Shown here: one piece after another, positions 38 to 63,800 of the stretch
How positions within the stretch are numbered: position 1 is the first letter of the stretch
How the letters are laid out: each line of letters begins with the position of its first letter
Origin: Nematopogon swammerdamellus
Taxonomy: Eukaryota; Arthropoda; Insecta; Lepidoptera; Adelidae
Length of the DNA: 64,000 nucleotides
NCBI GenBank assembly: GCA_946902875.1
Contig: OX336342.1
Span: 13,819,523-13,883,522 of the forward strand
Direction: 5' to 3'
The notes under the pieces: generated by a model
The model's input: only the letters and a program-made list of their open reading frames with translations
The model's database searches: none
What the model was told of the DNA's origin: nothing
Position numbers and translations under genes: made by a program

Positions 38-243
38 TTTTCTTAATCGATTCAGTTTCATGCCAGGAACAAAAACAGTCTTCCAACACATAGATCTCTT
101 TTTTTCAGAAATTGTGAAAAACCACAATTTTAGTTTTATTAGTATGGAATAGAAAGAATTTGATTTTTTTTACCAACTTACATGTTACATCAAAATGGTA
201 ACGAAGACTTTTTTGTTACTGTTATGAAACTGAATCGATTAGG
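38..243. mobile_element. Imperfect inverted-repeat (MITE-like) element
   Basis: The sequence near 38-80 (TAATCGATTCAGTTTCAT core) returns as an imperfect reverse complement near 200-243 (ATGAAACTGAATCGATTA). The arms are about 40 bp with several mismatches and the spacer between them is AT-rich. No clear target duplication is visible. This fits an old non-autonomous inverted-repeat transposon or foldback remnant. The superfamily cannot be assigned. Confidence 0.4.
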
Positions 244-499
244 CTATAAAAATCAACCACATATTCTTTTATTTAAATACATAAAAAACATTTTACATAA
301 AAAAAGCCCAAGGTCCAAAAAATTTTATATAGGTTTTACTCCCTATATGATGCAGAACCCCCCCTTAGCGTACTATTAACTAATTTTGAAAGACCTTATA
401 TATTAAGATCACAATGAAGTGATACTTACCTATGAAATGAGATGCCATCAGTTTTCCCAATATTTTTGGTATGATTTTTGCAATATCGCAACACACAAC

Positions 500-690
500 C
501 GGGCATAATGACTGGCGCGATGCGAGCCGCAGACGGACGGCTGCGAGCGCGCGGGCGGCGCGTCCGCCGCGTTCGGCCGCTCGCGAGCTACTAGTCTCAA
601 GAGGGTCTCACCGCGTAATGGTTACTCCACCGCGGTGGAGCGAAGGCTGTTGCCCGGGTAAGAGGTCTAGTAGAATACATGATACGTCAT
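500..690. other. CpG-rich block
   Basis: A block dense in GCGC, CCGC and CGCG words inside AT-rich DNA. It encodes only a low-complexity Arg/Ala frame with no recognisable domain. It could be a regulatory CpG cluster or the GC-rich core of a decayed element. Nothing in the sequence decides between these. Confidence 0.45.
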
Positions 691-852
691 TGGGTTAAAT
701 AGAGTTTTTTACAAATTTTATGCGCTGCCAGTTGACAACGCCGTGCTATCATGGTGGCAGACGTGGTCCATAATATTTCTTTTGGTACAATTATCGCTTC
801 ATACAGCGACAAAGATCATACAGAAATGTTGCTCGCCAGCTCCCTAGCTATA

Positions 853-1303
853 CAGGTTGTAAAAACGGCGAGTACATTAAATTTAGGAAATGATTATTGG
901 GATCAAGAGTAACAAAAAAGTCAAATAACTTTTTTCTGAATTCCCTTTAAATAAAAAGTTACAGTTTTCATACAAACTAATTGATTTATTTAGTGTAAAA
1001 GGATCTAATGTTCCGCACGAACGTGGGAATGAAAGGCGCGCGGTGAGTGAGCGAAGAGGGACGAGCGCGGAGAGAGGAGATGTGCGGAGGCGGCGCAGTG
1101 TGAGTTTTTCGTCCCTAACCGTTCCCGCGCCAGCACCTTCCCCCTTCACGCGTCAAATTACACTAGACGAAAACATAAATTTCAAAAATTAATATCTCAA
1201 AAACTAGACACTTTAGGGAAAAACTTTATTTACTTTTTGTCTCGGAAAAACATGAGGATTGCGCTGGCGAAATATTTAATGTACTGGCCATTACAACACC
1301 CTG
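853..1303 (-). mobile_element. TA-flanked MITE, copy A (GC-rich core)
   Basis: Terminal inverted repeats begin CAGG(T/G)TG and continue into AACGGCGAGTACATTAA. Both ends abut TA dinucleotides. The outer ~170 bp on each side match the second copy at 18435-18851 in inverted orientation, including the GATTATTGGGAYCAAGAGTAAC segment region and the ACATGAGGATTGCGCTGGCG segment. The middle (about 1010-1150) is very GC-rich and differs from copy B. The open frame at 883-1149 is a by-product. TA flanks suggest a Tc1/mariner-type or other TA-targeting element, but no transposase is present. Confidence 0.75.
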
Positions 1304-2084
1304 TATATATGTTGTCGCTAGCTGCCTGTGCGCGCAGTATCATAACTTGAATGTGATAATTAGTACGTGTAAATATTATAGTTTAATGTGAATTTTATTA
1401 ACTGAAATAAAACGTTCTATTTGTACGTCTCGCTTTATTGAATTTATCTTCATAGATTCTATCTTACATTAAAAACGGTAAACCTTATGGAACAATTGAA
1501 AATTAATGTATATTAACCCTGTTATTACAAGTAATTAAATATTTAGTAAATTGAATGCACTGCGAAGTTTCACAAAGAAATACTGGCTACGTACCAGTAT
1601 ACCGGCCAATTTAAACAATACTATAAAATTTCCTCAAATATAACTAAGTATTGTACCTACATTCCAGATATTCCTATTACTATTATAAATTTGAATCCAA
1701 CCTTCGCACCAATATGGCCGCCTAAAGACTAAAAGGAATACGAAATCCTCGTAACTTTTAGTTTAGACACAGAAGATCCACTCGCGCAACCTCACTCACT
1801 GCAGCTGCAGCAGGTCGGGTAAGTTCGCAGCTTGTCGGACGATTCTGCCTCAAATATTAACCGAGTTCTCTCGCCTCTATAACGAAACTTCCGACAGCGC
1901 TCGCCTAACTGTTCAATCGAGATTCTTAGGCATCAGCGTCGAGTTGTTCTTTTACAAAGTCTTGCAGAAGAAATTCCAGCTCTATCCTCACCCACGCCGA
2001 AATCCTATGTCTTTAGATATGTAGGTAAAATATATATTACATAATTATATCGTATAATATTGTAATTGACCAGAGTTCTTCCAG
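1304..2084. other. No gene seen; AT-rich spacer
   Basis: Both strands were examined for coding or structural signals and none is convincing. An AATAAA-containing stretch at about 1406 recalls a retrotransposon end, but no matching second LTR was found in the window. Confidence 0.5.
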
Positions 2085-2150
2085 CACAACACCGATTACT
2101 CTGCTTACCCCGATTGTCGGGGTTCAGCGTGTGTGATATGTATGTATGTA
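2085..2150 (-). repeat. Fragment of the CCCGACAAYCGGGG dispersed repeat
   Basis: The segment is the reverse complement of a motif at about 31485-31530 and 57365-57415 (CCCGACAAYCGGGGTAAGCAG, then AGTAR.CGGTGTTGCGCTG). Three occurrences in one window show it is a dispersed element. Only the conserved core is present here. Confidence 0.5.
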
Positions 2151-2440
2151 TATCGGATAATATAATCCTCAGTACAGTTCTCTCTTAGTAATACATTCTT
2201 ACGAATACAGTAACCAGCTTCAACAAAAAGGCTATTAAATATTTCTGAAATGTTTAACATTTTGACTGAACTTCTCAGGCATTTATTGCCTGTACCTGCC
2301 TGTACCTGTACATGTATTTTAAGTAAATATTTATGTATGTTTTTCGTTTAATTAGCAAAGATGCCAAATGCTTGGTCGCGTCGTGTGAAATAATATCAGC
2401 TCGATAAAAAAAATATATTATTTGATTCCCGGCTATTCTA

Positions 2441-2506
2441 GACACACTCCGCACAAACCTATGCGTAAGACAATAGCTTACGCATAGGTTTGTGCAGAGT
2501 GTGTGA
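2441..2506. repeat. Near-perfect short hairpin
   Basis: CACACTCCGCACAAACCTAT is followed, after a very short loop, by its reverse complement with one mismatch (ATAGGTTTGTGCAGAGTGTG). The total stem is about 30 bp. A small foldback remnant is likely. A hairpin RNA is possible but there is no promoter or conservation evidence. Confidence 0.6.
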
Positions 2507-2659
2507 GGTAGCTTGAGGTAATTTAACTCCCTTTGCTGATCATGATTTACTTGATTCAATGATTAGGGTGGACAGACTCAATTTGTTTTTTAGCATACAT
2601 AAACTGTCGGGAGCCCAAGTGAGAGGGACTTAGTAATTGTGTTGAATTTCGTAGAGCGT

Positions 2660-2700
2660 TCTCTATCCCTTAGGGACTCTGGACCCTAAGGGATGGAGAA
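2660..2700. repeat. Short hairpin
   Basis: TCTATCCCTTAGGG and CCCTAAGGGATGGAGA pair around an eight-base loop. The rest of 2507-3127 shows no coding signal. Confidence 0.5.
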
Positions 2701-3127
2701 GATGAGTAATATGGCGCTGATATTAACAAATTATTTTAAAAGCCCTAAAAATACATTAAAATAAAAAAAAAATAAAGTCTTCATTCAGGAATGCGGTTAA
2801 TTAAATCAAATCTTATCCTTTCCAGCCAGGCCCGAATAATTACTACTGTGAATACAGTATTAAATAGTCCTAGATCGGCGGAGCGCCCATAAGTTAATAG
2901 GGTTAAGATGTGAGATTTCACTGTGTTATTACTGCTTCGAATAGAGCGGGAAACGTGCTCTAACTTGCTCGATCAATTTGTCCCGGTAGGGGGCACCCGC
3001 GCAGTCCACAAGTCGTTGTCGAGTTGTGTATGAATCTACAATATTTTAGTTTCAATACAATTCCCGCATCTTAAATTGAAAAAGAGCCAAATATACTGAA
3101 AGAAAGAAACAATGAAAGAAAGAAAAG

Positions 3128-3541
3128 TTTTTTTTTATGTAATCCGCTATGGGTGGCTGAGTCGGAGGGGCCAAAGCGCATGCTCCGACCAGCCAATATC
3201 ACCTCCGAGAAGGTAGGTGCCATACCAAAGACTTCCCTGGATTGCTGGATATACTGAACTAGAGGAGAACACAACCGAGGCTGCTATGCGGCCATCTTAC
3301 ATCCAGTACGGTGGTACCATCCCAGTCTGCTACAATTTGAGCCTACCGCCTACCACCTAGTAAGGGGCAAGGGAAGGGACCTACAGTTTTACACCGGTTC
3401 CGAACGGTGAAGCAGCAGGTGTAGGTATGCACGTAAATTTTTTCGTCAGAAAAAACTCATTGGTACACGCCGACCGGATTCGAACCGAGGACCTCTCGCA
3501 TGATGAGAAGCCGATGCCCAAACCACTCGGCCACCCGCCAC
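3128..3541 (-). mobile_element. tRNA-headed SINE, near full length
   Basis: On the minus strand the element starts at about 3541 with a tRNA-like head. It has an A-box-like TGGCCGAGTGG and a B box GGTTCGAATCC, then a body with GGTGTAAAACTGTAGGTCCC and GGTGGTAGG, and ends in a T-run at 3128-3136 (poly-A on its own strand). A second copy of the same family lies on the plus strand at 42722-43128. The head resembles a tRNA but sits in a ~410-bp repeat with a poly-A end, so it is a SINE and not a tRNA gene. Confidence 0.85.
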
Positions 3542-4148
3542 ATCTTAGACCACCTATCAACTCAACTTCCCATCACACCCCGCGAAGATGAACTCACTTA
3601 TTTTAGACCATTTTCACTGTGTCGCGCTGTATGCTAGAATAAGTCAATAAATAGTGTAGCGTCAGATCCCTATCATAGATGGCACTTTAACATTTTATTT
3701 CCTTCAGAGTATACACAGTTCTCCATGGATGTGGGAGGCGACAGCTGTTTGCCGCCACTTTATTGGAGTTTCAGCTTCAAGGCGAGACTCTCGGCACCTT
3801 GTATGCCAACCCCGCCGCCGCCGCCGGCCGCCGCAATATCATCGCATTTGCATCTCAGCTCCTGTATAGATTTAGTACATTCAGTATTCAGGAATAGTAA
3901 ACTAATTCGTTATTTTAAGCACCTTTACATTGATATGTGAGATTAGAAATGTACGGATGGTTTTAATAATTTTACGGTTACATTTCGTCTCGAATCTGAA
4001 ATCAATGTAAAAATACATAAATCCGTCACTCCCGTAAAAGAAAGCAAGCACCCTAAGCAAAACGTGAGGAAAGTTTTGATGTGTACAAGTGTGACTGGAA
4101 GAAATTGCATGCTGGAATTCGTCCACTGTGTTCACTACAGAAAAGTGT
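3542..4148. other. No gene seen; contains a short CCG run
   Basis: AT-rich sequence with one (CCG)n-type patch at about 3810-3835, which gives a Pro-rich spurious frame. No other structure was found. Confidence 0.5.
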
Positions 4149-4372
4149 AAGCTAGAAACTCATTGGGCCCACGTAAGCTACGCACGTGTACATGAGCGCG
4201 TCGGTCTCCATACATTTTATACGGAAGAGTGCAGCACGCAGTGTGTCGCGTAGCGCAGGGAGGCGTGGGCGCAATGAAACTGCGTGCTGCACTCTTCCAC
4301 ATAAAATGCATGGAGACCGACGCGCCCAGATTCGCGTGTGTGGCGTACGTGGGCCCAATGAGTTTCTAGCTT
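4149..4372. mobile_element. Foldback element (palindrome), 224 bp
   Basis: AAGCTAGAAACTCATTGGGC at the left end reads back as GCCCAATGAGTTTCTAGCTT at the right end. Matching continues inward through GCGTCGGTCTCCAT/ATGGAGACCGACGCG and GGAAGAGTGCAGCACGCAGT/ACTGCGTGCTGCACTCTTCC. The loop is about 45 bp. The open frames on both strands here are mirror images produced by the palindrome. Foldback or MITE class; family unknown. Confidence 0.8.
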
Positions 4373-4509
4373 AAGAAATAAGTTAATATGAAAATGGCTA
4401 CATCACCATTGTACGCGTGATGTCAGTGTATCAGTTTGTATTTGTGCACAGTGAAATTGTTGCTAAGACTTCCTTTATGGTCTTTCCGGTTGTACAACCG
4501 GAACGACCA

Positions 4510-5160
4510 AAAAGTATACTGAACTAGAAAAAAACACGAACTATTTACATATCCCTCGACATATCCGCTTTGCCCGACCTTCATTCAGTGCGGTGGTACT
4601 AATCCGGACGAGTTGAGCGATACCAGCAGTATGGAGTGGGACCCAGAGGCGGACTTTCCTTAAGGCCGACGAGGCCGGGGCCTAGGGCGGCCAGATATTA
4701 GGGGCGGTCAATCTGCGCCTGCTGCTGGAAGCAGTGAGCGCAGGTACAGAATAGAAGCTTGGCGGCGCGGCGGCGGCGACGCGGCCATTTAAAATAATTT
4801 AGCTATGACGAAAAGATCAATATTGCCGTAAAACTTATAAAAAATACTTTTGCGAGGTATATATATGTAAAAAAAAGCACTAAACTACAGGTTGAACCTA
4901 ACGCAATACTCATTTTCGTACAACTTCACATTTGTAACTATGCTGTAAACTTGAAAAGGGCGGTTGCACTGAATTGGGGGCGGTACTAAACGGCCTAGGG
5001 CGGCCAAGGCTGCTAGTCCGCCTCTGGTGGGACCTATAGTTTTAACGTGAAATGGGAACCACGGTCAACGATCGGGCGGTTACCAATCCAAAGTCCGACC
5101 GCGCCCGACATTGCTTACCATGCGCGCGAGTACCAGCGACTTACCGAGAGTTATCTAAAC
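4510..5160 (-). mobile_element. 5S-headed SINE, interrupted by a DNA transposon
   Basis: The minus-strand head at about 5050-5150 contains TAAGCAATGTCGGGCGCGGT followed by TTGGATTGGTAACCGC, close to the internal promoter region of 5S rRNA. The body (GGTGGTAC...TGAATGAAGGTCGGGC...) occupies about 4510-4643. The two parts are separated by the element at 4644-5026. Diverged from the copies at 13.3, 31.0, 44.0 and 52.0 kb. Confidence 0.7.
4644..5026. mobile_element. Non-autonomous hAT-type transposon with 8-bp duplication
   Basis: The 383-bp insert begins CAGAGGCGGACT and ends AGTCCGCCTCTG, a perfect 12-bp terminal inverted repeat. It is flanked by a perfect 8-bp direct repeat, GTGGGACC, at 4636-4643 and 5027-5034. 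hAT elements characteristically make 8-bp duplications and have CAG-type termini. The interior has two GGCCTAGGGCGGCC motifs and a GC-rich run but no transposase frame. It interrupts a SINE, so it is younger than the SINE insertion. Confidence 0.9.
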
Positions 5161-12190: not shown

Positions 12191-12752
12191 CGTCCGAGTC
12201 GTCTCCTTTGTCACTATATGGCTTAACGCGAACTATCAACAATGTGCATTGTGTTGCGTCCAAAACCAGCGAGCTTCTCGCATAGTTATACGCTTTGCGA
12301 AACTGCAGTCTGGCCTTTCTACACTGGATCACTTTTAACTACAGCGTCGCGTCGCGGGTCGTCGCTCGGCTCAACAATCCACGCTGACGACGCAGTGTCT
12401 CGTCAGTCGTCTCGCGTATCCATAAAAAAAAATATTCGAGGAATACGATCATTTTGGCAGCTAACAACTTTTGACATTGAAAATTGTTTTTCGATCGCTT
12501 CAGTATAGTCCCCGATTTCCAGAGTTTTAAGGCTACGTGAATATTTAGGGTATCAAATGACGCGTATCGATGAGCGCTTGAGAAAAAAGTTTGAAAGTTT
12601 TTGAGAAAATCGCAAAAAACTAAATAAAATAGCTTTTTAGGGGCTTTTAAACATATTTCTAAATATGAATTTTAAACTTTTATATTATTATTATATTGCA
12701 GTGTGAGTAGTTAAAATAGTTTTCGTGTATGCTTAAACTTAAAAAAAAAGTT

Positions 12753-13185
12753 TTAAAAAACATAAAACCGACTTCCTAAAAAAAGGAAAACTAAAAAACT
12801 ATTCAAAATAAAAATATAAAAACCGCCTTCAAAAATATATGAAATAAAAACCTAAAAAAAAAAAACGAACCCTAGAGTTGAAGGCGGTGCTAAAAAGGCT
12901 ACACAAATCACAAAGGATATTATCATCCACTCATGTTTTCTTTCATGCATCATTTTTGCTTGCTTTACAAATCACAAAGGATATTATCATCCACTCATGT
13001 TTTCTTTCATGCATAATTTTTGCTTGCTTTAGCACCGCCTTCAACTCTAGGGTTCGTTTTTTTTTTTTAGGTTTTTATTTCATATATTTTTGAAGGCGGT
13101 TTTTATATTTTTATTTTGAATAGTTTTTTAGTTTTCCTTTTTTTAGGAAGTCGGTTTTATGTTTTTTAAAACTTTTTTTTTATTT
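12753..13185. repeat. Foldback module of composite copy 1
   Basis: Arms at about 12755-12888 and 13030-13180 are reverse complements over roughly 130 bp with no mismatch that I can find. The loop holds a ~64-bp sequence (ACAAATCACAAAGGATATTA...) duplicated in tandem. The arms carry variants (GGAAAAC, ATTCAAA) absent from copies 2 and 3. Confidence 0.9.
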
Positions 13186-13224
13186 CACAGTTTTTTTTAG
13201 TAATTTTTTGCTATTAATGTACTC

Positions 13225-13262
13225 GGCGGAATCGCTCGGCCTTCGGCCTCGCGATTCCGCCT
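13225..13262. repeat. Perfect GC hairpin
   Basis: GGCGGAATCGC and GCGATTCCGCC pair around TCGGCCTTCGGCCTC, itself a palindrome. CGGCCTTCGGCCTCG is also the core of the 68-bp minisatellite family. Present in all three composite copies. Confidence 0.8.
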
Positions 13263-13302
13263 CGCTTTCCAATCCGATCTTGACCCAATTAAAATAGGAC
13301 CA

Positions 13303-13650
13303 CGTCAGCTTCGATAGCTCAGTGGTGCAGACAGTCAACTGTCGCTATTGAATTTTAAGCAACGCTGGGTGCGGTCAGTACTTAGATGGGTGACCGCTGA
13401 CCGTTGGAGGCTGACCAAGGTTCGGATTCCTCGTAAAACTGTAAGTCCCTTCCCTCGTAATTTTACTTGGTGGTAGGGTTTAACCTTCCCGGGTTGGTAC
13501 CACCGCACTGAATTAAACGTCGGTCGAAACGGCTATGTAAATAGTTTGTGTTTTCCGACCAGTTCAGTGTAGTCAGCACGATCAAAGGGGGAAGCACTGA
13601 CATGGCACTGGTGTTATGGGCTGACATCACAGACGTTGTAGGTGATGTTG
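13303..13650 (+). mobile_element. 5S-headed SINE inside composite copy 1 (3' truncated)
   Basis: The head contains TTTTAAGCAACGCTGGGTGC, then GGTCAGTACTTAGATGGGTG and ACCGC, matching the internal control region of 5S rRNA. It is preceded by a tRNA A-box-like TAGCTCAGTGGTGCAG. GTCAGC near the start and GGCTGAC after the head form a terminal stem. The body ends where the element joins GATGTTGCAGAACTTAG. It is in the same place in all three composite copies, so it was there before amplification. Confidence 0.85.
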
Positions 13651-14974
13651 CAGAACTTAGTAGAATGGACAGACATAAACGTGTTACGGAAGCCTACTTT
13701 TATTATAAAATAACCGTCGGAGGACCTTGGTTGAAAATTGTAAAATTTAGTAGAACGGATAGACATGCATATGTTACGGAACCCTACATTCATTTTGCAG
13801 AACTTAGTAGAATGGACAGACATAAACGTGTTACGGAACCCTACTTAACAGTTGCACTCCGGGAGTGCCGGCAGATCCCGTGCCACTCTAACTTAACCCT
13901 TAACGCAATGACTTAAGGTTTCATTTTAAAAATGACGCTGACGCGATGTCGCGAGTTATACATTTTTACCCACCTAAAAAAGTGCCAAGAGCCGCTAAAG
14001 AAGTTTTCACTTCAAAAACCTCAGGGTTATCCCCTTTCAAATAAAAAAAAAAAGAATTTTCAAAATCGGCCCACAATTGACGGAGTAATCGCGTAACAAA
14101 CATCCAAAAAAAGAAAACATACCGTCGAATTGAGAATCTTTTAGGTCTAAAGTAAATTTCTCGTGAAGACAAATGCAACGAGCCCAAACACGATGGGTTT
14201 ATCATGTGTAGTTTAGGAGTTCCTATGGCCACCTTCTGTCTCCATCATCAAACCAGCTCGATGGTACTCGGTACAGTAGGTACTGGCCAGGTACCATAAT
14301 AAATTAAACGCCGGTCGGAAAAGATAAAAAAATTTCAAATTTAGAATATTCATGAAACAAGGGTCCGAATATGTATCACTAGTATATCGATTCATGTATT
14401 TCAACAGGACAGAGAAAATTTCAAAATATTAGGTATTTAATACTTTTTAGTTTTTTTTTTTTGTTTTTTGGAAATCGGTTTAATATTTTTTAAAACAGTT
14501 TTTATTTCATTCTTTTTAGTAATATTACATAAAAAAGAATAATCGAAATCGAATAATCGAAATCGATTGAAGTGGTACAGAATTATTCGCCATATGTGTC
14601 AGACTGCAAATTGCTGAATAAGTCCACATCACAAATGTTTTGCTGAAGGTAACCACACACCATACTAATTTATCAAACTGAAAATTGCCGAAAACGACCA
14701 CATCACAAGTTTTGCTGAAGGTAACCACACACCATAGTATTATGCTGATTTTTCGAAAACCACTGAACCAATTTCGATAAAATTGAAATGGGACCACCTC
14801 GGAAGTATGACCTAACTAACAAAAAAAGAATTTTCTAAATCGGCCCTCAATTGACGGAGAAATCGTGTTACAAACATACAAAAAAATAATAAAAAAAAAA
14901 ATAAAAAAAAAAATAAAAAAAAACATACAGACGAATTGAGAACCTCCTCCTTTTTTGGAAGTCGGTTAAAAATT

Positions 14975-15479
14975 AAGAAGTTCCTTTTTTTTGTAAATTT
15001 TCAAAATTGACATATTTCAGTATGAAAAAACATGTAAATTTTTTGTATTGATATTACTTTTAATATTCATAATACGGCGTACAGTATCCCCGACACCGCG
15101 TTCTGAAGGCGTAAAAGCCGCTCACAGCACGCACGCGGACAGCGCCAGTGAGCCGCCAGTCAGTATCGCTCTCTCTGGCTACCTCACACTACTATGTTAC
15201 AAAGAATTACACAATACATGATCTTTTTAGCTCACTGACCAGAAGCCGACTAATCGCTTTCTTATAGCTCACATTCAGCACGCGCACAGTCGGCGACTCA
15301 CTATACGCTTATATTTGAATACGCCCTAAAAGTCATTTTCAATGTATCTGAAGGTCATGTAATGTATAAGATCTGTGAATTTTTTTAAATAGTTTAACGT
15401 GGAATGTAGAGGTCAACGTAAATATTAAATAATACGTAAAATGTTACGCTAAATACGTTAAATATTTCGAATATAATAT
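14975..15479. other. No gene seen
   Basis: AT-rich with a moderately GC-rich patch at 15080-15180. No repeat match was found inside the window. Confidence 0.5.
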
Positions 15480-43415: not shown

Positions 43416-43431
43416 AAAATAAATTAAATAA

Positions 43432-45648
43432 TTAAAAAACATAAAACCGACTTCCTAAAAAAAGTAAAACTAAAAAACTATTTAAAATAAAAATATAAAA
43501 ACCGCCTTCAAAAATATATGAAATAAAAACCTAAAAAAAAAAACGAACCCTAGAGTTGAAGGCGGTGCTAAAAAGGCTACACAAATCACAAATGATATTA
43601 TCATCCACTCATGTTTTCTTTCATGCATCATTTTTGCTTGCTTTACAAATCACAAAGGATATTATCATCCACTCATGTTTTCTTTCATGCATCATTTTTG
43701 CTTGCTTTAGCACCGCCTTCAACTCTAGGGTTCGTTTTTTTTTTTAGGTTTTTATTTCATATATTTTTGAAGGCGGTTTTTATATTTTTATTTTAAATAG
43801 TTTTTTAGTTTTACTTTTTTTAGGAAGTCGGTTTTATGTTTTTTAAAACTTTTTTTTTATTTCAGTTTTTTTTAGTAATTTTTTGCTATTAATGTACTCG
43901 GCGGAATCGCTCGGCCTTCGGCCTCGCGATTCCGCCTCGCTTTCCAATCCGATCTTGACCCAATTAAAATAGGACCACGTCAGCTTCGATAGCTCAGTGG
44001 TGCAGACAGTCAACTGTCGCTATTGAATTTTAAGCAACGCTGGGTGCGGTCAGTACTTAGATGGGTGACCGCTGACCGTTGGAGGCTGACCAAGGTTCGG
44101 ATTCCTCGTAAAACTGTAAGTCCCTTCCCTCGTAATTTTACTTGGTGGTAGGGTTTAACCTTCCCGGGTTGGTACCACCGCACTGAATTAAACGTCGGTC
44201 GAAACGGCTATGTAAATAGTTGTGTTTTCCGACCAGTTCAGTGTAGTCAGCACGATCAAAGGGGGAAGCACTGACATGGCACTGGTGTTATGGGCTGACA
44301 TCACGGACGTTGTAGGTGATGTTGCAGAACTTAGTAGAATGGACAGACATAAACGTGTTACGGAAGCCTACTTTTATTATAAAATAACCGTCGGAGGACC
44401 TTGGTTGAAAATTGTAAAATTTAGTAGAACGGATAGACATGCATATGTTACGGAACCCTACATTCATTTTGCAGAACTTAGTAGAATGGACAGACATAAA
44501 CGTGTTACGGAACCCTACTTAACAGTTGCACTCCGGGAGTGCCGGCAGATCCCGTGCCACTCTAACTTAACCCTTAACGCAATGACTTAAGGTTTCATTT
44601 TAAAAATGACGCTGACGCGATGTCGCGAGTTATACATTTTTACCCACCTAAAAAAGTGCCAAGAGCCGCTAAAGAAGTTTTCACTTCAAAAACCTCAGGG
44701 TTATCCCCTTTCAAATAAAAAAAAAAAGAATTTTCAAAATCGGCCCACAATTGACGGAGTAATCGCGTAACAAACATCCAAAAAAAGAAAACATACCGTC
44801 GAATTGAGAATCTTTTAGGTCTAAAGTAAATTTCTCGTGAAGACAAATGCAACGAGCCCAAACACGATGGGTTTATCATGTGTAGTTTAGGAGTTCCTAT
44901 GGCCACCTTCTGTCTCCATCATCAAACCAGCTCGATGGTACTCGGTACAGTAGGTACTGGCCAGGTACCATAATAAATTAAACGCCGGTCGGAAAAAATA
45001 AAAAAATTTCAAATTTAGAATATTCATGAAACAAGGGTCCGAATATGTATCACTAGTATATCGATTCATGTATTTCAACAGGACAGAGAAAATTTCAAAA
45101 TATTAGGTATTTAATACTTTTTAGTTTTTTTTTTTTGTTTTTTGGAAATCGGTTTAATATTTTTTAAAACAGTTTTTATTTCATTCTTTTTAGTAATATT
45201 ACATAAAAAAGAATAATCGAAATCGAATAATCGAAATCGATTGAAGTGGTACAGAATTATTCGCCATATGTGTCAGACTGCAAATTGCTGAATAAGTCCA
45301 CATCACAAATGTTTTGCTGAAGGTAACCACACACCATACTAATTTATCAAACTAAAAATTGCCGAATACGACCACATCACAAGTTTTGCTGAAGGTAACC
45401 ACACACTATAGTATTATGCTGATTTTACGAAAACCACTCAACCAATTTCGATAAAATTGAAATGGGACCACCTCGGAAGTATGACCTAACTAACAAAAAA
45501 AGAATTTTCTAAATCGGCCCTCAATTGACGGAGAAATCGCGTAACAAACATACAAAAAAATAAAAAAATAAAAAATAAAAAAAAAAATAAAAAAAAACAT
45601 ACAGACGAATTGAGAACCTCCTCCTTTTTTGGAAGTCGGTTAAAAATA
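43432..45648 (+). mobile_element. 2.2-kb composite foldback element, copy 2
   Basis: Module order and length are as in copy 1: foldback with a duplicated ~64-bp loop segment, GC hairpin, 5S-headed SINE (43977-44324), triplicated GTTACGGAACCCTAC section, and two 3' modules. The foldback arms read AGTAAAAC and ATTTAAAA on both sides, unlike copy 1. The 3' half has private differences (AAACTAAAAATTGCC, ATTTTACGAAAACCACTC). Confidence 0.85.
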
Positions 45649-45809
45649 AAAAATCTGCACAGTGCTTTTTCGAGGAAATCACATGAACGCAGACCGATTC
45701 TTGAATTTCGATTACTTTTGACAATTTGACTCGGTTCCTATAAACAGGCGATGGCTTGATAGTACATAATTATCCCGAAACATCACTAATATATTGGTGG
45801 AAAACCTAT
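45649..45809. other. No gene seen
   Basis: Short AT-rich spacer. Confidence 0.4.
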
Positions 45810-50135: not shown

Positions 50136-50490
50136 CAGATTGCGTCCGACGTTCATTTTACACGCCATCGATTTCTGTCTGGAATTTTACCCTTTGAAAG
50201 TAACGACATCCAGCTGACTCAATCTATTCTAAGTTAAACTCAGATTTCATTCAACCTGAGTTATATAATAGTCAAGTCGATCTCAACCGCAAAACGCCGT
50301 CATAATCTCTACTCGCGTCTTGCTTTAAACCGTGTTTAGACGGTAAAATGTGTGAATACATTAAAAAACACTGCCATAATAATAATAATGTCCAAATGCC
50401 TCGTACGAGTACGGTCATCAAAGCAGTCTGTTTACGCGTGCGACAGGTAGAAGTTCTCTAAATGCGCAAAACATACTCGTAGTAACCTAC
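50136..50490. other. No gene seen
   Basis: AT-rich spacer before composite copy 3. Confidence 0.4.
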
Positions 50491-52585
50491 TTTTTAACCG
50501 ACTTCCAAAAAAGGAGGAGGTTCTCAATTCGTCTGTATGTTTTTTTTTTTTTTTTATTTATTTTTTTATTTTTATTTTTTTGTATGTTTGTAACACGATT
50601 TCTCCGTCAATTGAGGGCCGATTTAGAAAATTCTTTTTTTGTTAGTTAGGTCATACTTCCGAGGTGGTCCCATTTCAATTTTATCGAAATTGGTTCAGTG
50701 GTTTTCGAAAAATCAGCATAATACTATGGTGTGTGGTTACCTTCAGCAAAACTTGTGATGTGGTCGTTTTCGGCAATTTTCAGTTTGATAAATTAGTATG
50801 GTGTGTGGTTACCTTCAGCAAAACATTTGTGATGTGGACTTATTCAGCAATTTGCAGTCTGACACATATGGCGAATAATTCTGTACCACTTCAATCGATT
50901 TCGATTATTCGATTTCGATTATTCTTTTTTATGTAATATTACTAAAAAGAATGAAATAAAAACTGTTTTAAAAAATATTAAACCGATTTCCAAAAAACAA
51001 AAAAAAAAAACTAAAAAGTATTAAATACCTAATATTTTGAAATTTTCTCTGTCCTGTTGAAATACATGAATCGATATACTAGTGATACATATTCGGACCC
51101 TTGTTTCATGAATATTCTAAATTTGAAATTTTTTTATTTTTTCCGACCGGCGTTTAATTTATTATGGTACCTGGCCAGTACCTACTGTACCGAGTACCAT
51201 CGAGCTGGTTTGATGATGGAGACAGAAGGTGGCCATAGGAACTCCTAAACTACACATGATAAACCCATCGTGTTTGGGCTCGTTGCATTTGTCTTCACGA
51301 GAAATTTACTTTAGACCTAAAAGATTCTCAATTCGACGGTATGTTTTCTTTTTTTGGATGTTTGTTACGCGATTACTCCGTCAATTGTGGGCCGATTTTG
51401 AAAATTCTTTTTTTTTTTATTTGAAAGGGGATAACCCTGAGGTTTTTGAAGTGAAAACTTCTTTAGCGGCTCTTGGCACTTTTTTAGGTGGGTAAAAATG
51501 TTTAACTCGCGACATCGCGTCAGCGTCATTTTTAAAATGAAACCTTAAGTCATTGCGTTAAGGGTTAAGTTAGAGTGGCACGGGATCTGCCGGCACTCCC
51601 GGAGTGCAACTGTTAAGTAGGGTTCCGTAACACTTTTATGTCTGTCCATTCTACTAAGTTCTGCAAAATGAATGTAGGGTTCCGTAACATATGCATGTCT
51701 ATCCGTTCTACTAAATTTTACAATTTTCAACCAAGGTCCTCCGACGGTTATTTTATAATAAAAGTAGGCTTCCGTAACACGTTTATGTCTGTCCATTCTA
51801 CTAAGTTCTGCAACATCACCTACAACGTCCGTGATGTCAGCCCATAACACCAGTGCCATGTCAGTGCTTCCCCCTTTGATCGTGCTTCAGTGCTTCAGAA
51901 TTCAGTGCGGTGGTACCAACCCGGGAAGGTTAAACCCTACCACCAAGTAAAATTACGAGGGAAGGGACTTACAGTTTTACGAGGAATCCGAACCTTGGTC
52001 AGCCTCCAACGGTCAGCGGTCACCCATCTAAGTACTGACCGCACCCAGCGTTGCTTAAAATTCAATAGCGACAGTTGACTGTCTGCACCACTGAGCTATC
52101 GAAGCTGACGTGGTCCTATTTTAATTGGGTCAAGATCGGATTGGAAAGCGAGGCGGAATCGCGAGGCCGAAGGCCGAGCGATTCCGCCGAGTACATTAAT
52201 AGCAAAAAATTACTAAAAAAAACTGTGAAATAAAAAAAAAGTTTTAAAAAACATAAAACCGACTTCCTAAAAAAAGTAAAACTAAAAAACTATTTAAAAT
52301 AAAAATATAAAAACCGCCTTCAAAAATATATGAAATAAAAACCTAAAAAAAAAAACGAACCCTAGAGTTGAAGGCGGTGCTAAAGCAAGCAAAAATGATG
52401 CATGAAAGAAAACATGAGCGGATGATAATATCCTTTGTGATTTGTGTAGCCTTTTTAGCACCGCCTTCAACTCTAGGGTTCGTTTTTTTTTTTAGGTTTT
52501 TATTTCATATATTTTTGAAGGCGGTTTTTATATTTTTATTTTAAATAGTTTTTTAGTTTTACTTTTTTTAGGAAGTCGGTTTTTT
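50491..52585 (-). mobile_element. 2.1-kb composite foldback element, copy 3 (inverted)
   Basis: The reverse complement of copies 1 and 2 across all modules. Differences: the ~64-bp loop segment is single rather than duplicated; the SINE lacks roughly 60 bp around 51885-51905, where a TTCAGTGCTTCAG junction replaces the region; and the outer end (52570-52585) lacks the ATGTTTTTTAAAAC word. It lies 4.8 kb from copy 2 in opposite orientation. Confidence 0.85.
51990..52110 (-). mobile_element. 5S-like head of the SINE within composite copy 3
   Basis: Minus strand: GCTTCGATAGCTCAGTGGTG, TTTTAAGCAACGCTGGGTGC, GGTCAGTACTTAGATGGGTG. Identical in layout to the SINE in copies 1 and 2. Confidence 0.8.
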
Positions 52586-56327: not shown

Positions 56328-57308
56328 TGTCGCAGTATTATCATAAGATTAGTAAAATTATAATTTTACTAGTAAAATCATAATGCTTCGTATTATTGTG
56401 AGTCAAAGCAAAAATTCACAATCTTACTGGTTAAAGTTAGCATTATTATAATTTTACTAGACTACCTTAGAAAGATTGTAAAATGCCATGATTTCTTACA
56501 ATTTTACTGCTTCATCTCTTAGATATCTAGTAAAATTATAATTTTACTAATTGTGGTTAGTAATATTGTATTTCTGAGGAGCGCGCGGGGCGGGCGGGAG
56601 ATGACGCTTGCAGTGATTGGCCGGTATCGCATGGAGCCATGTCGTCGGGGCAATATCACAGATTACTTAATAGTTACATCATTGGCGTTCACTGAAGATT
56701 GTTTTGTTAGTTGAAATAAAACCGTTTAATATAGGCACATGCACATCTGTGATGTAGGTTGCACCGCCTCAACATTAGGTTAGGGTTAACTTTTTTTTTA
56801 ACCACCAAAACATTGTGAATATTTTGGTGGTATGATGTATGATGTTTTAAAAAAAAAAATACGCATCTTCTAAAATTAACCCTAACCTAATGTTGAGATG
56901 GCGCATGTCGTTTTTGTTATGTTTCGTTTCGAGCCATGGCAGTGAACGCCAATGATGCATATTGCCCCGAGACGCTCGTGTACTACTAAGCTAAAATTGG
57001 TTTAAATATTGTGCATGACTGCATGTACAATATTTAAACCAATCAGCGCACGATATACGTCTTCATACAATTTTACTAGCTATGTTTAGTAAAATTATAA
57101 TTTTACTAAAAATATGCCCAATCAATCAGTAAAATTGTGAGAAAATATCGTTGTTTACAATCTTTCTAAGGTCTAGTAAAATTATAATAATGCTAACTTT
57201 AACCAGTAAGATTGTGAATGTTTGCTTTGACGCACAATAATACGAAGGATTATGATTTTACTAGTAAAATTATAATAATTTTACTAATCTTATAATAATA
57301 ATGCGACA
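56328..57308. mobile_element. Nested (three-level) inverted-repeat element, ~980 bp
   Basis: Outer arms: 56328-56580 against about 57062-57308, from TGTCGCA through ATAAGATTAGTAAAATTATA, ACTAGTAAAATCATAATG and CACAATCTTACTGGTTAAAG. Middle arms: GGGGCAATAT...ATCATTGGCGTTCACTG at about 56647-56690 against CAGTGAACGCCAATGATGCA at about 56939-56971. Inner arms: GCACCGCCTCAACATTAGGT then TAGGGTTAAC (56761-56791) against GTTAACC-like TTAACCCTAACCTAATGTTG (56877-56900). An additional hairpin lies at 56999-57041. The arms contain the self-palindromic word TAGTAAAATTATAATTTTAC. No coding. Confidence 0.8.
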
Positions 57309-57935: not shown

Positions 57936-58154
57936 CGTACCACCACGTGTAAATTCAACATAAAATGTTTTGTTTACAGACTAGTCTGCTAACCGGTGCG
58001 CCTCCTGAAAGACTTCCTGGCTCCTTTGGCTCCTTTCGGCAGACTTCGGCTCGAAGGAAAGTGTGGTGGTATGAGTGATGTTTTGGTGGTTAAAAGAAAA
58101 CCAGGTTTAATATAAATAAGATGCATCTTATCTTTATTAACCCTAACCTAATGT

Positions 58155-58190
58155 CACAGCATATATATGGCTAAAGCAGTATGGAAACTA
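58155..58190 (+). repeat. Left 36-bp terminal inverted repeat
   Basis: Begins CACAGCATATATATGGCTAA and ends GTATGGAAACTA. Identical to the complement of 63666-63701. Confidence 0.9.
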
Positions 58191-58389
58191 CGTACAAAAC
58201 GATCGAAACGGCGCACTCACACACACGCACACCTCAACAAGGCCCCGAAGCGAATGTCGCAAACAATCAGTCGCGGGTGCCGCTTCCGAGTGGTCGTGTT
58301 TGTTTTTGTTGCATGCGCCACGGACAGTTCACGATCTTTTAGAATGCAAAAAAAATGTTTACAAACGTTTTTCGACTGCTGCCAATTTA

Positions 58390-60415
58390 TATTAACTTTT
58401 GACAAATGTTGACAACTTTTGTCAACTTTTTTCATCTTTTGCCAACTTCTGTCACATTTTGTCAACTTTTATCGACTGTTGTCAACTTTTGCTAACTTTT
58501 CTCATCTTTTGCCAACTTCTGTCACCTTTTGTCAACTTTTATCGACTGTTGTCAACTCTTGTCAAGTTTTGTAAACTTTTGAGAACTTTTGCCAACTCTC
58601 GGTAACTTATGTCAACTCTTGTCAACTTTTGTCAACTTTTCTTATCTTTTGCCAACTTCTGTCACCTTTTGTCAACTTTTATCGTCTGTTGTCAACTCCT
58701 GTCAAGTTTGTAAACTTTTGAGAACTTTTGTCAACTGTCGGTAACTTATGTCAACTCTTGTCAACTTTTGTCAACTTTCGTCAATATTTGTCAACTTTTG
58801 TCATCTTTTGTCAACTTTTATCGACTGTTGTCACCTCTTGTCAATGTTTGTAAACTTTTGAGAACTTTTGTCAACTGTCGGTAACTTATGTCAACTCTTG
58901 TCAACTTTTGTCAACTTTTCTTATCTTTGCCCACTTCTGTCACCTTTTGTCAACTTTTATCGACTGTTGTCAACTCTTGTCAATGTTTGTCAACCTTGGT
59001 CAACTTTTGTCAACTTTCGTCAATATTTGTCAACTTTTGTCATCTTTTGTCAACTTTTATCGACTGTTGTCAACTCTTGTCAAGTTTGTAAACTTTTGAG
59101 AACTTTTGTCAACTGTCGGTAACTTATGTCAACTCTTGTCAACTTTTGTCAACTTTTCTTATCTTTGCCCACTTCTGTCACCTTTTGTCAACTTTTATCG
59201 ACTGTTGTCAACTCTTGTCAATGTTTGTCAACCTTGGTCAACTTTTGTCAACTTTCGTCAATATTTGTCAACTTTTGTAATCTTTTGTCAACTTTTATCG
59301 ACTGTTGTCAACTCTTGTCAAACTTTGTCAACCTTGGTCAACTTTTGTTAACTTTCGTCAACATTTGTCGACTTTTGTCATCTTTTGTCAACGTTTGTCA
59401 ACTTTTGTCTATTTTTCTCGATTTTTGTGAAATTATAGCCACTTTCGTCATCTTTTATCAACTTTTCTCATCTTTTGCCAACTTCTGTCACCTTTTGTCA
59501 ACTTTTATCGACTCTTGTCAAGTTTTGTAAACTTTGAGAACTTTTATCAACTCTCGGTAACTTATGTCAACTCTTGTCATCTTTGTCAACATTTGTCAAC
59601 TTTTGTCAACTTTCGTCAACTTTTGTCAACTTTTGTCAACTTTCGTTAACGTTTGTCTACTTTTATGGCTTTTGTCGACTTTTGTTAACTTATAGCCACT
59701 TTCGTCATCTTTTGTCAATTTTTGCCAACTTCTATCAGCTTTTGTAAAATTTTAACGACTGTTGTCAACTTTCGGAAATTTTTGTCAACTTTTGCCAACT
59801 TCTGTCACTTTTATGAACTTAGGCCAGCTTCCGTCAAATTTTGTCAACTTTCGTCAACTTTCGTCATCTTTTGTCAACTTTTACTAACTTCTGTCAACTT
59901 TTAACCACTATTGTCAACTTTTGCCAAGTTCTGTCACTTTTATGAACTTTTGTCAGCTTTCGTGAACTTTTGTCAACTCTTATCGACTGTTGTCAACTCT
60001 TGTCAATCTTTGTTAACCTTTGTCGGCTTTTGTCTACTTTTGTCATTTTTTATCAACTTTTATCGACCTGTGTCAACTTTTATCGACTGTTGTCAACTCA
60101 TGTCAATGTCAACCTAACCTTGGTCAACTTTTGTCAACTTTCGTCAACATTTGTCATCTTTGTCAACTTTTATCGACTGTTGTCAACTCTTGTGGTTGTT
60201 TGTCAACCTTAGTCAACTTTCGTCAACATTTTGTCATCTTTTGTCAACGTTTGTCAACTTTTGTATACTTTTCTCGACTTTTGTGAACTTATAGCCACTT
60301 TCGTCATCTTTTGTCAACTTTTGCCAACTTCTCTCAGCTTTTGTCAGCTTTTATCATATTTTAACCACTGTTGTCAACTTTTGTCACTTTTATGAACTTT
60401 TGTCAGCTTTCGTTA
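58390..60415 (+). repeat. Decamer satellite, forward array (~2.0 kb)
   Basis: Hundreds of variants of GTCAACTTTT with units of 9-11 bp. Higher-order structure is visible: the marker GAGAACTTTTGYCAACTSTC recurs at 58581, 58720, 58860, 59098 and 59536 (spacings 139, 140, 238 and 438 bp). The block with TATGAACTTTTGTCAGCTTT near 59940 has a mirrored partner in the reverse array. Because three decamers make ten codons, the array is open in several frames and yields the cyclic peptide STFVNFCQLL; this is not evidence of a gene. Confidence 0.92.
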
Positions 60416-60417
60416 AC

Positions 60418-63400
60418 AAGGAGTTGACAAAAGTTGACAAGAGTTTACATAAGTTGACTAAAGTTGACAAGAGTTAACGAAAGTTGACAAACTGGACAAA
60501 AGACGGGAAAAGTTGACGAAAGTTGACAAACAGCTGACATAAGTTGACAAACGTTGACAAAATATGAAAAAAGTTGAATATACTTAGTTGACATTAATTA
60601 ACAATAGTTGACGAAAGTTGACAAGAGTTGACAAAAGTTCACGAAAGCTGACAAAAGTTCATAAAAGTGACAGAACTTGGCAAAAGTTGACAATAGTGGT
60701 TAAAAGTTGACAGAAGTTAGTAAAAGTTGACAAAAGATGACGAAAGTTGACAAAAGTTGACGGAAGCTGGCCTAAGTTCATAAAAGTGACAGAAGTTGGC
60801 AAAAGTTGACAAAAATTTCCGAAAGTTGACAACAGTCGTTAAAATTTTACAAAAGCGAGAAGTTGGCAAAAATTGACAAAAGATGACGAAAGTGGCTATA
60901 AGTTAACAAAAGTCGACAAAAGCCATAAAAGTAGACAAACGTTAACGAAAGTTGACAAAAGTTGACAAAAGTTGACTAAAGTTGACAAAAGTTGACAAAT
61001 GTTGACAAAAGTTGACAAGAGTTGACATAAGTTACCGAGAGTTGATAAAAGTTCTCAAAGTTTACAAAACTTGACAAGAGTCGATAAAAGTTGACAAAAG
61101 GTGACAGAAGTTGGCAAAAGATGAGAAAAGTTGATAAAAGATGACGAAAGTGGCTATAATTTCACAAAAATCGAGAAAAATAGACAAAAGTTGACAAACG
61201 TTGACAAAAGATGACAAAAGTTGACATATATTGACGAAAGTTGACAAAAGTTGACCAAGGTTGACAAACATTGACAATAGTCGATAAAAGTTGACAAAAG
61301 GTGACAGAAGTGGGCAAAGATAAGAAAAGTTGACAAAAGTTGACAAGAGTTGACATAAGTTACCGACAGTTGACAAAAGTTCTCAAAAGTTTACAAACTG
61401 GACAGGAGTTGACAACAGACGATAAAAGTTGACAAAAGGTGACAGAAGTTGGCAAAAGATAAGAAAAGTTGACAAAAATTGACAAGAGTTGACATAAGTT
61501 ACCGAGAGTTGGCAAAAGTTCTCAAATGTTTACAAAACTTGACGTTAGTAAGAACAGAAGTTAGTAAAAGTTGACAAAAGATGACGAAAGTTGACAAAAG
61601 TTGACGTAAGCTGGCCTAAGTTCATAAAAGTGACAGAAGTTGGCAAAAGTTGACAAAAATTTCCAAAAGTTGAGAACAGTCGTTAAAATTTTACAAAAGC
61701 TGATAGAAGTTGGCAAAAATTGACAAAAGATGACGAAAGTGGCTATAAGTTAACAAAAGTCGAAAAAAGCCATAAAAGTAGACGAACGTTAACGAAAGTT
61801 GACAAAAGTTGACAAAAGTTGACGAAAGTTGACAAAAGTTGACAAATGTTGACAAAAGTTGACAAGAGTTGACATAAGTTACCGAGAGTTGATAAAAGTT
61901 CTCAAAGTGTACAAAACTTGACAAGAGTCGATAAAAGTTGACAAAAGGTGACAGAAGTTGGCAAAAGATGAGAAAAGTTGATAAAAGATGACGAAAGTGG
62001 CTATAATTTCACAAAAATCGAGAAAAATAGACAAAAGTTGACAAACGTTGACAAAAGATGACAAAAGTTGACAAATATTGACGAAAGTTGACAAAAGTTG
62101 ACCAAGGTTGACAAACATTGACAATAGTCGATAAAAGTTGACAAAAGGTGACAGAAGTGGGCAAAGATAAGAAAAGTTGACAAAAGTTGACAAGAGTTGA
62201 CATAAGTTACCGACAGTTGACAAAAGTTCTCAAAAGTTTACAAACTTGACAGGAGTTGACAACAGACGATAAAAGTTGACAAAAGGTGACAGAAGTTGGC
62301 AAAAGATAAGAAAAGTTGACAAAAATTGACACAAGAGTTGACATAAGTTACCGAGAGTTGGCAAAAGTTCTCAAATGTTTACAAAACTTGACGTTAGTAA
62401 GAACAGAAGTTAGTAAAAGTTGACAAAAGATGACGAAAGTTGACAAAAGTTGACGGAAGCTGGCCTAAGTTCATAAAAGTGACAGAAGTTGGCAAAAGTT
62501 GACAAAAATTTCCAAAAGTTGAGAACAGTCGTTAAAATTTTACAAAAGCTGATAGAAGTTGGCAAAAATTGACAAAAGATGACGAAAGTGGCTATAAGTT
62601 AACAAAAGTCGAAAAAAGCCATAAAAGTAGACGAACGTTAACGAAAGTTGACAAAAGTTGACAAAAGTTGACGAAAGTTGACAAAAGTTGACAAATGTTG
62701 ACAAAAGTTGACAAGAGTTGACATAAGTTACCGAGAGTTGATAAAAGTTCTCAAAGTTTACAAAACTTGACAAGAGTCGATAAAAGTTGACAAAAGGTGA
62801 CAGAAGTTGGCAAAAGATGAGAAAAATTGATAAAAGATGACGAAAGTGGCTATAATTTCACAAAAATCGAGAAAAATAGACAAAAGTTGACAAACGTTGA
62901 CAAAAGATGACAAAAGTCGACAAATGTTGACGAAAGTTAACAAAAGTTGACCAAGGTTGACAAAGTTTGACAAGAGTTGACAACAGTCGATAAAAGTTGA
63001 CAAAAGATTACAAAAGTTGACAAATATTGACGAAAGTTGACAAAAGTTGACAAATATTGACAACAGTCGATAAAAGTTGACAAAAGGTGACAGAAGTTGG
63101 CAAAAGATGAGAAAAGTTGATAAAAGATGACGAAAGTGGCTATAATTTCACAAAAAAAATAGACAAATAGACGAGAAAAATAGACAAAAGTTGATAAAAG
63201 ATGACAAAAGTCGACAAATGTTGACGAAAGTTAACAAAAGTTGACCAAGGTTGACAAAGTTTGACAAGAGTTGACAACAGTTGATAAAAGTTGACAAAAG
63301 ATGACAAATATTGACGAAGGTTGACAAACATTGACAAGAGTTGTCAACAGTCGATGAAAGTTGACAAAAGTTGACAAATGTTGACGAAAGCTGACAAAAG

Positions 63401-63475
63401 TTTACCAAGGTTGACAAACATTGACAAGACTTGACAACTGTCGATAAAAGTTGACAAAAGTCGAGAAAAGTTATA
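60418..63475 (-). repeat. Decamer satellite, reverse array with 848-bp higher-order repeat (~3.0 kb)
   Basis: The complement AAAAGTTGAC, joined to the forward array at TCGTTAACAAGGAGTTGACA. The markers GTTACCGAGAGTTGATAAAA at 61031, 61878 and 62727, and CAGTCGTTAAAATTTTACAA at 60833, 61677 and 62526, give tandem periods of 844-849 bp, nearly three copies. The mirrored single copy is in the forward array (59380-59990). The sum of mirrored coordinates is about 120600, placing the palindrome axis near 60300. Confidence 0.92.
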
Positions 63476-63665
63476 TCAATCATATTTATAGCAACCACGT
63501 TTTGAACTTATTATTGATGATTGATTATATTGATTATTTGATCATTACATTACAGAACCTAAATAAATGTTTTAATAAATAATAATTTTACAATTTTACA
63601 AAAAAAATTGATTGACATCCCTAACGCTCCAATGGAGCGTAGGTACTTATTTTAACAAATAGGCC

Positions 63666-63701
63666 TAGTTTCCATACTGCTTTAGCCATATATATGCTGT
63701 G
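63666..63701 (-). repeat. Right 36-bp terminal inverted repeat
   Basis: Exact complement of 58155-58190, ending CTGTG directly before the second CTAATGT. Confidence 0.9.
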
Positions 63702-63800
63702 CTAATGTTGAGGCGGTGCATGTCGTTTTTGTTACGTTTCGTTTCGAGCCGAGTGTTCACGAAAGGAGCCGAAAAGGAACCGAAATGTCTTTCAGGTGTC

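Follow-up and report, generated by a model that had tools for sequence, protein, structure and literature searches.

The arms of the foldback elements FB and FB4 of Drosophila melanogaster are built from very short tandem units of 10, 20 and 31 bp, and these Mutator-like elements are flanked by 9-bp duplications; the P element of the same species has an 8-bp duplication and no arrays. Galileo is described as combining a P-superfamily transposase lineage, a 7-bp duplication and a palindromic target with internally repetitive inverted arms and many gene-less copies (PMC3573991, PMC4168063, PMC3688188), and in the foldback Tetris of Drosophila virilis a satellite is reported to have arisen from the internal tandem repeats, while neither an autonomous partner nor the transposase of Tetris was found (PMC4079207). 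The same account implicates foldbacks in chromosome inversions and in the founding of satellites (PMC4079207). Here we describe a 5547-bp element lying within a 64,000-nucleotide stretch of DNA, the whole of which is referred to below as the window. Very probably it belongs to the P superfamily of DNA transposons, as a foldback-type element that is non-autonomous, and it most likely works like Galileo and Tetris.

A parallel to the FB/Galileo design had been drawn in an initial annotation of this DNA, and it largely holds: the very short tandem units recall FB, which differs in its duplications and its Mutator-like nature, while repetitive inverted arms, a 7-bp duplication and P-type relatives are shared with Galileo. 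The comparison with Galileo covers published descriptions, duplication length and target motif, and within it several differences are plain. The repeat unit is 10 bp here and is given as about 210 bp for the Galileo F group; only 36 bp form the terminal inverted repeat (TIR) here, and unique DNA follows; about 91% of the window copy consists of opposed arrays; and GTANTAC, reported as the Galileo target consensus (PMC4168063), is a minority target, matched exactly at 3 of 41 sites. Tetris, also a foldback, is described with a unit of 220 bp, duplications of 8-10 bp and an assignment by its authors to Mutator (PMC4079207), and its satellite arrays are reported outside the element. Within the window studied here, the exact decamer is confined to the element. 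The present element also departs from the foldback type in that its repetitive arms lie inside unique subterminal DNA and do not start at the very end. What distinguishes it from the described systems is a 10-bp unit in a P-superfamily element with opposed arrays filling nearly its whole length; the size and youth of its family, a probably lepidopteran host and an array-free relative in the same genome are also distinctive. We found no prior description of the family in the open-access literature, a search outside which subscription papers, preprints and Repbase lay, and a paper on monarch transposable elements names foldback and Galileo only within its reference list.

Results

Structure of the window copy

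The element ends in 36-bp TIRs that are identical at 36 of 36 positions in inverted orientation, the identity stopping at base 37, and is bounded by a direct duplication, CTAATGT, of exactly 7 bp that cannot be extended in either direction (Table 1). Unique DNA of about 203 bp on the left (Lu) and about 193 bp on the right (Ru) separates the TIRs from decamer arrays, which occupy 5068 of the 5547 bp as two opposed blocks with fully separated strands. Exact copies of the decamer TTGTCAACTT number 39 in the left arm, all forward, and 60 in the right arm, all in reverse, and the rest of the window has none; allowing up to one mismatch gives 246 matches, compared with a mean of 8.7 and a maximum of 17 in shuffled sequence. 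Cyclic alignment to the decamer scored 3046 (left) and 4494 (right), against 827-926 and 1249-1349 in five shuffles each. The perfect TIRs, the 7-bp duplication and some 5 kb of decamer satellite in two opposed arrays had all been claimed in the initial annotation, and these observations are confirmed. Its description of a satellite-sized palindrome needs one refinement, in that the arms do not mirror each other: they are uneven and scrambled and form no clean hairpin.

The window copy carries no transposase gene. A Pfam scan of nine of the 11 long window frames gave nothing above cut-off and two weak sub-threshold matches, and scans of the window with Rfam and for transfer RNA (tRNA) genes gave none.

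Table 1. Features of the element and of its insertion site (positions in the window)
Feature	Position	Strand	Basis
Left target-site duplication CTAATGT	58148..58154	.	Flank comparison; single copy in related empty site
Left 36-bp TIR	58155..58190	+	574 exact genome copies
Left unique subterminal region (Lu)	58191..58393	+	Sequence comparison with family copies and L076
Left decamer array, consensus AACTTTTGTC, ~203 copies	58394..60410	+	Repeat and strand analysis
Switch point between opposed arrays, GTCAGCTTTCGTTAACAAGGAGTTGACAAAAG	60399..60440	.	Comparison of 41 copies
Right decamer array, reverse complement of AACTTTTGTC, ~305 copies	60422..63472	-	Repeat analysis
Tandem duplication in right array, 60710-62115 vs 61554-62964, 98.5%	within 60422..63472		Self-alignment
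Right unique subterminal region (Ru)	63473..63665	+	Sequence comparison with copies and relatives
Right 36-bp TIR	63666..63701	-	TIR alignment
Right target-site duplication CTAATGT	63702..63708	.	Flank comparison
Related empty site	56846..56935	+	Joined flanks and one CTAATGT align across junction

Relatives with a P-type transposase

Thirty-seven Tnp_P_element matches were found in the genome, of which six (loci L071-L075 and L078) were read in sequence; loci L076 and L077 came from a protein search with the L075 frame. That frame is open over 796 amino acids (aa) and matches PF05485, PF12017, PF21787, PF21788 and PF21789 above cut-off, i.e. THAP, helix-turn-helix (HTH) and three RNase-H-related P families. 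It also matches the D. melanogaster P-element transposase in PDB (6p5a, E 1.7e-30), with which it has the THAP domain in common. The DNA directly upstream of the frame contains a decamer array (about 764-1675) as well as 158 bp that match Ru at 85%.

A link to our element is provided by L076, an array-free complete relative of 4867 bp that is flanked on both sides by the 7-bp duplication GTTCAAG and whose termini start with CACAGTA. One of its ends matches the outer 126 bases of Ru plus the TIR at 81%, the opposite end matches the left TIR plus the first 40 bp of Lu at 84%, and the interior contains a broken P-type gene and no decamer array. In L077, arrays flank an internally deleted P-type gene on both sides; one end has Ru and a terminus matching at 30 of 36 positions, and the other has Ru without a terminus. 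Across L075, L076 and L077, parts of Ru stand beside or around P-type transposase genes at 81-93% identity. Because L076 joins ends, duplication length and transposase, with L077 and L075 alongside, these three properties are tied together, and the window element shares descent with P-superfamily elements. The domains of a P-type transposase (THAP, HTH and split RNase-H) are found in these end-sharing relatives, and the duplication, 7-8 bp in the superfamily, measures 7 bp in L076 and in all 41 copies. The initial annotation had proposed a partner with the same termini and a P-superfamily (THAP) transposase, and L076 answers to this in its ends, duplication and gene, though not as an intact autonomous copy.

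At least 60 matches in the genome were obtained with the L075 frame (57 of 250 candidates scored). Its homologues elsewhere number at least 78 (7990 candidates scored), the best being 69% identical and from Colias eurytheme; those named by organism and ranked above P0057 are all lepidopteran, which gives the probable lepidopteran origin of the window indirect support.

Some observations on these loci stand apart. In L075 a tRNA-like stretch resembling a short interspersed element (about 480-605; by eye from GGTTCGAACC) abuts Ru in the position of the terminus. Several further P-superfamily families in the genome, with L071 (547-5713) as an example, have long open frames of 680-949 aa, some in 3-5 equal-scoring copies; L071 has 43-bp inverted ends of its own.

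Insertion event and target preference

When the flanks are joined with one CTAATGT, they align across the junction to the related empty site over 91 columns at 84.6%, and the 30 bases spanning the junction have a reverse match at 56760-56789 that is identical at 30 of 30 positions. Since the joined flanks match elsewhere in the window, the target belonged to a different repeat family, and the duplication measures exactly 7 bp; the insertion is a real event. This target repeat is present three times in the window, once reversed (56760-56935 and 58107-58154/63702-63750).

Over the 41 sites of our copy sample, counted on both strands, a pyrimidine stands at position 2 of the target in 96%, which by symmetry puts a purine at position 6. 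Mirrored pairs are complementary in 2.46 of 7 cases on average, compared with 1.79 +/- 0.18 after shuffling, and mismatches to GTANTAC average 3.76 of 6 against 4.51 +/- 0.16 (minimum 3.93) in 500 shuffles. The target is a weakly palindromic 7-bp site, NYNNNRN.

A family of similar elements

We searched the genome (699,432,277 bases in 39 contigs) for the terminus with up to 3 mismatches and found 644 sites (324 + 320), 574 of them exact (285 + 289), while the reversed pattern, used as a control in the same genome, gave none. If most termini are paired, the family comprises about 320 elements. A set of 100 of the 574 exact sites, on contigs C1-C3 and part of C4, comprises 88 that form plus/minus pairs (44) and 12 single ones, and 40 of the 44 pairs together with the window copy make up the sample of 41. 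All 40 carry identical 7-bp flanking duplications, of 39 distinct sequences, and match both end regions of the window copy (Lu 88-98%, Ru 93-99%); part of Lu is clearly missing from L039, L040 and L041, and part of Ru from L062. They are 1695-6811 bp long, with arrays of very different length. A terminus unique to this locus, which had been named as a finding that would overturn the initial annotation, is thereby excluded, and the further copies, 7-bp duplications and variable arrays that it predicted are all present.

Oriented by Ru and with the window copy included, 40 of 41 copies have the arrays in plus-minus order, i.e. the long, internally repetitive inverted arms of a foldback; L032 has a plus array only. 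Of the 41, the window copy ranks first both in right-arm length (3037 bp) and in total array. Two single sites, L010 and L015, run into arrays. Viral contigs, a collection from which records of this genome are perhaps excluded, contain no exact match to three decamers or to 29 bases of the terminus.

The longest copy, L039 (6.8 kb, with a 751-aa frame), was considered as an autonomous partner and rejected because the frame lies within a nested Transib with a 5-bp duplication (CGACG), termini CACAGTGGGGCGATACCG and a match to PDB 6pqn at E 2e-167. In the reversed element this insertion spans roughly bases 60-4754, and it accounts for the exceptional length of the copy.

Recent movement

Copies L038 and L058 differ at a single position in 3107 bases, carry different duplications and have 0.5-kb flanks without similarity. 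Because they are near-identical at unrelated sites, the whole foldback has moved very recently. Both flanks were shared over 300 bp or more by no pair among 780. Pairwise difference has a median of 1.6%, a mean of 3.1% and a maximum of 29% in Ru, and of 2.5%, 5.1% and 31% in Lu (L039 left out), the means being raised by a few rearranged copies. Low divergence after insertion is suggested by the 574 of 644 termini that are unchanged over 36 bases, in a count that omits sites with more than 3 changes. The arrays are more divergent: of 820 pairs compared, 262 gave a single alignment covering 90% of the shorter copy, and among these the closest pair after L038/L058 is 94.3% identical. The family is young.

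Order and evolution of the arms

The arms of the window copy are of unequal length as assembled (2.0 and 3.05 kb). The inverted arm-to-arm alignments listed have 71-83% identity, and blocks reach 97.3% over 659 bp; the right arm also contains a tandem duplication with an offset of 844 bp and 98.5% identity over 1411 bp. From this duplication and the 97.3% inverted blocks we infer that the arms evolve via block duplication and inverted exchange, beyond single-decamer slippage alone. A control for off-register identity, run with gaps allowed, did not discriminate: two of four shifted comparisons gave 92-93% against 88-90% in register, and these figures were not used. Folded as single-stranded DNA, a 601-base stretch spanning the centre reaches -137.5 kcal/mol, compared with -70.1 +/- 3.5 in 20 shuffles.

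The point at which the array changes strand is inherited, since 26 of the 41 copies have CGTTAACAA in their switch zone and L075 has a similar junction. In L041 the switch junction is found in reverse orientation at about element position 2205, which suggests an inversion inside the arms of that copy.

Discussion

Taken together, these data support the initial interpretation of the window element, and we propose the following scheme. A P-type transposase (THAP and RNase-H-like) made elsewhere would recognize the 36-bp termini together with the adjoining subterminal DNA and move the element by cut-and-paste transposition, with a 7-bp staggered cut at the weakly palindromic target. The coding region would have been lost, leaving, flanked by the unique subterminal regions, a decamer array with a single strand switch whose junction is largely conserved. 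Tandem duplication and inverted exchange between the arms would then alter the array, which would be carried along with the element. A P-type transposase of the clade of L075 and L076 probably still mobilizes the family.

Several points weigh against this scheme. L075 is damaged: it has no recognizable TIR, with other sequence in the position of the terminus, its THAP start is scrambled relative to its relatives and its C-terminal end is absent against six of seven aligned relatives. The P-type gene copies in L076, L077 and contig C3 (the last known from its protein match) are broken or deleted, the L076 gene matching the L075 frame at 57-83% in six pieces, and the listed matches at least 50% identical to the L075 frame, besides itself, are all broken or fragments. 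No intact transposase gene was found between matching termini, in searches that give lower bounds. The P loci L071, L072, L073, L074 and L078 are without the window element's ends, and other P loci on C1-C3 and part of C4 were excluded as partners for exact termini only. Identity of the TIRs in the 40 copies follows from the selection of sites with exact TIRs; the 12 single exact sites listed, three of them viewed as 3-kb loci, stand outside that sample. One of the single sites, L007, is a lone exact terminus (146 bp of terminus and Ru) with no decamer within 1.5 kb and represents a truncated or differently built copy.

We consider it unlikely, though worth retaining, that in the same element the decamer array is functional, its units serving as binding sites for the transposase or a host factor and the arrays as a transposition enhancer. 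Such a role has been proposed for the tandem repeats of Galileo, and the THAP domains of Galileo are reported to bind repeated sites within its long inverted repeats (PMC3688188). Opposed arrays are kept in 40 of 41 copies, and a spacing of 10 bp would set the units near one face of the helix, with 64% and 57% of T-tract spacings in the two arms being multiples of 10. However, the complete relative L076 has its 7-bp duplication without an array, conservation across the ten decamer positions is flat (79-88%) with no core, and duplications are intact whatever the length of the array, even in L032, where it has one orientation only. The absence of decamers from L076 and of a conserved core leads us to regard the decamer as probably mostly cargo, with the enhancer idea taken from Galileo as a possible alternative function of the arrays.

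It is very improbable that the element is a foldback from outside the P superfamily, whether hAT or a Mutator-type like FB and Tetris, with a coincidental resemblance to P relatives, even though a target with a pyrimidine at position 2 and a purine last but one also resembles the hAT preference. Foldbacks are mostly thought to be Mutator-like, but the duplications reported for the Mutator-assigned Tetris are of 8-10 bp (PMC4079207), against exactly 7 bp in 40 of 40 copies here. This alternative is largely refuted by L076, a single element in which a P-type gene goes together with the 7-bp duplication and with both ends. Misjoining during assembly, to which long inverted and near-identical (98.5%) tandem repeats are prone and which may affect the exact length of the window copy, is hardly credible as the source of the palindrome or of one TIR, given perfect 7-bp duplications in 41 of 41 copies, an identical switch junction in many separate copies and the related empty site in the window.

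As a cut-and-paste transposon that carries satellite-like DNA around a genome, the family is illustrative in its own right. Apparent stages coexist in one genome: a complete P-type element lacks arrays, other copies have both the gene and arrays, and a young burst consists of copies with arrays alone. With these side by side, the question of how foldback arms and a mobile satellite originate can be tested directly. One quite doubtful reading goes further and holds that a P lineage has turned into a mobile satellite: an array-free ancestor would have gained inverted arrays, and gene-less copies that are 80-90% satellite would have out-spread the gene-bearing ones because in transposition the arrays offer the transposase, or a host protein, a platform of many phased sites. 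If so, the family would spread by itself and act as a source both of satellite DNA and of palindromes prone to inversion. Independently of that reading, the roughly 320 related inverted repeats are candidate breakpoints for inversions.

Other repeats in the window

A repeat of roughly 2.2 kb is present three times in the window, at 12740-14979, 43417-45653 and 50488-52583, with 96.7-98.9% identity between copies and with inverted ends ACCGACTTCC...GGAAGTCGGT.

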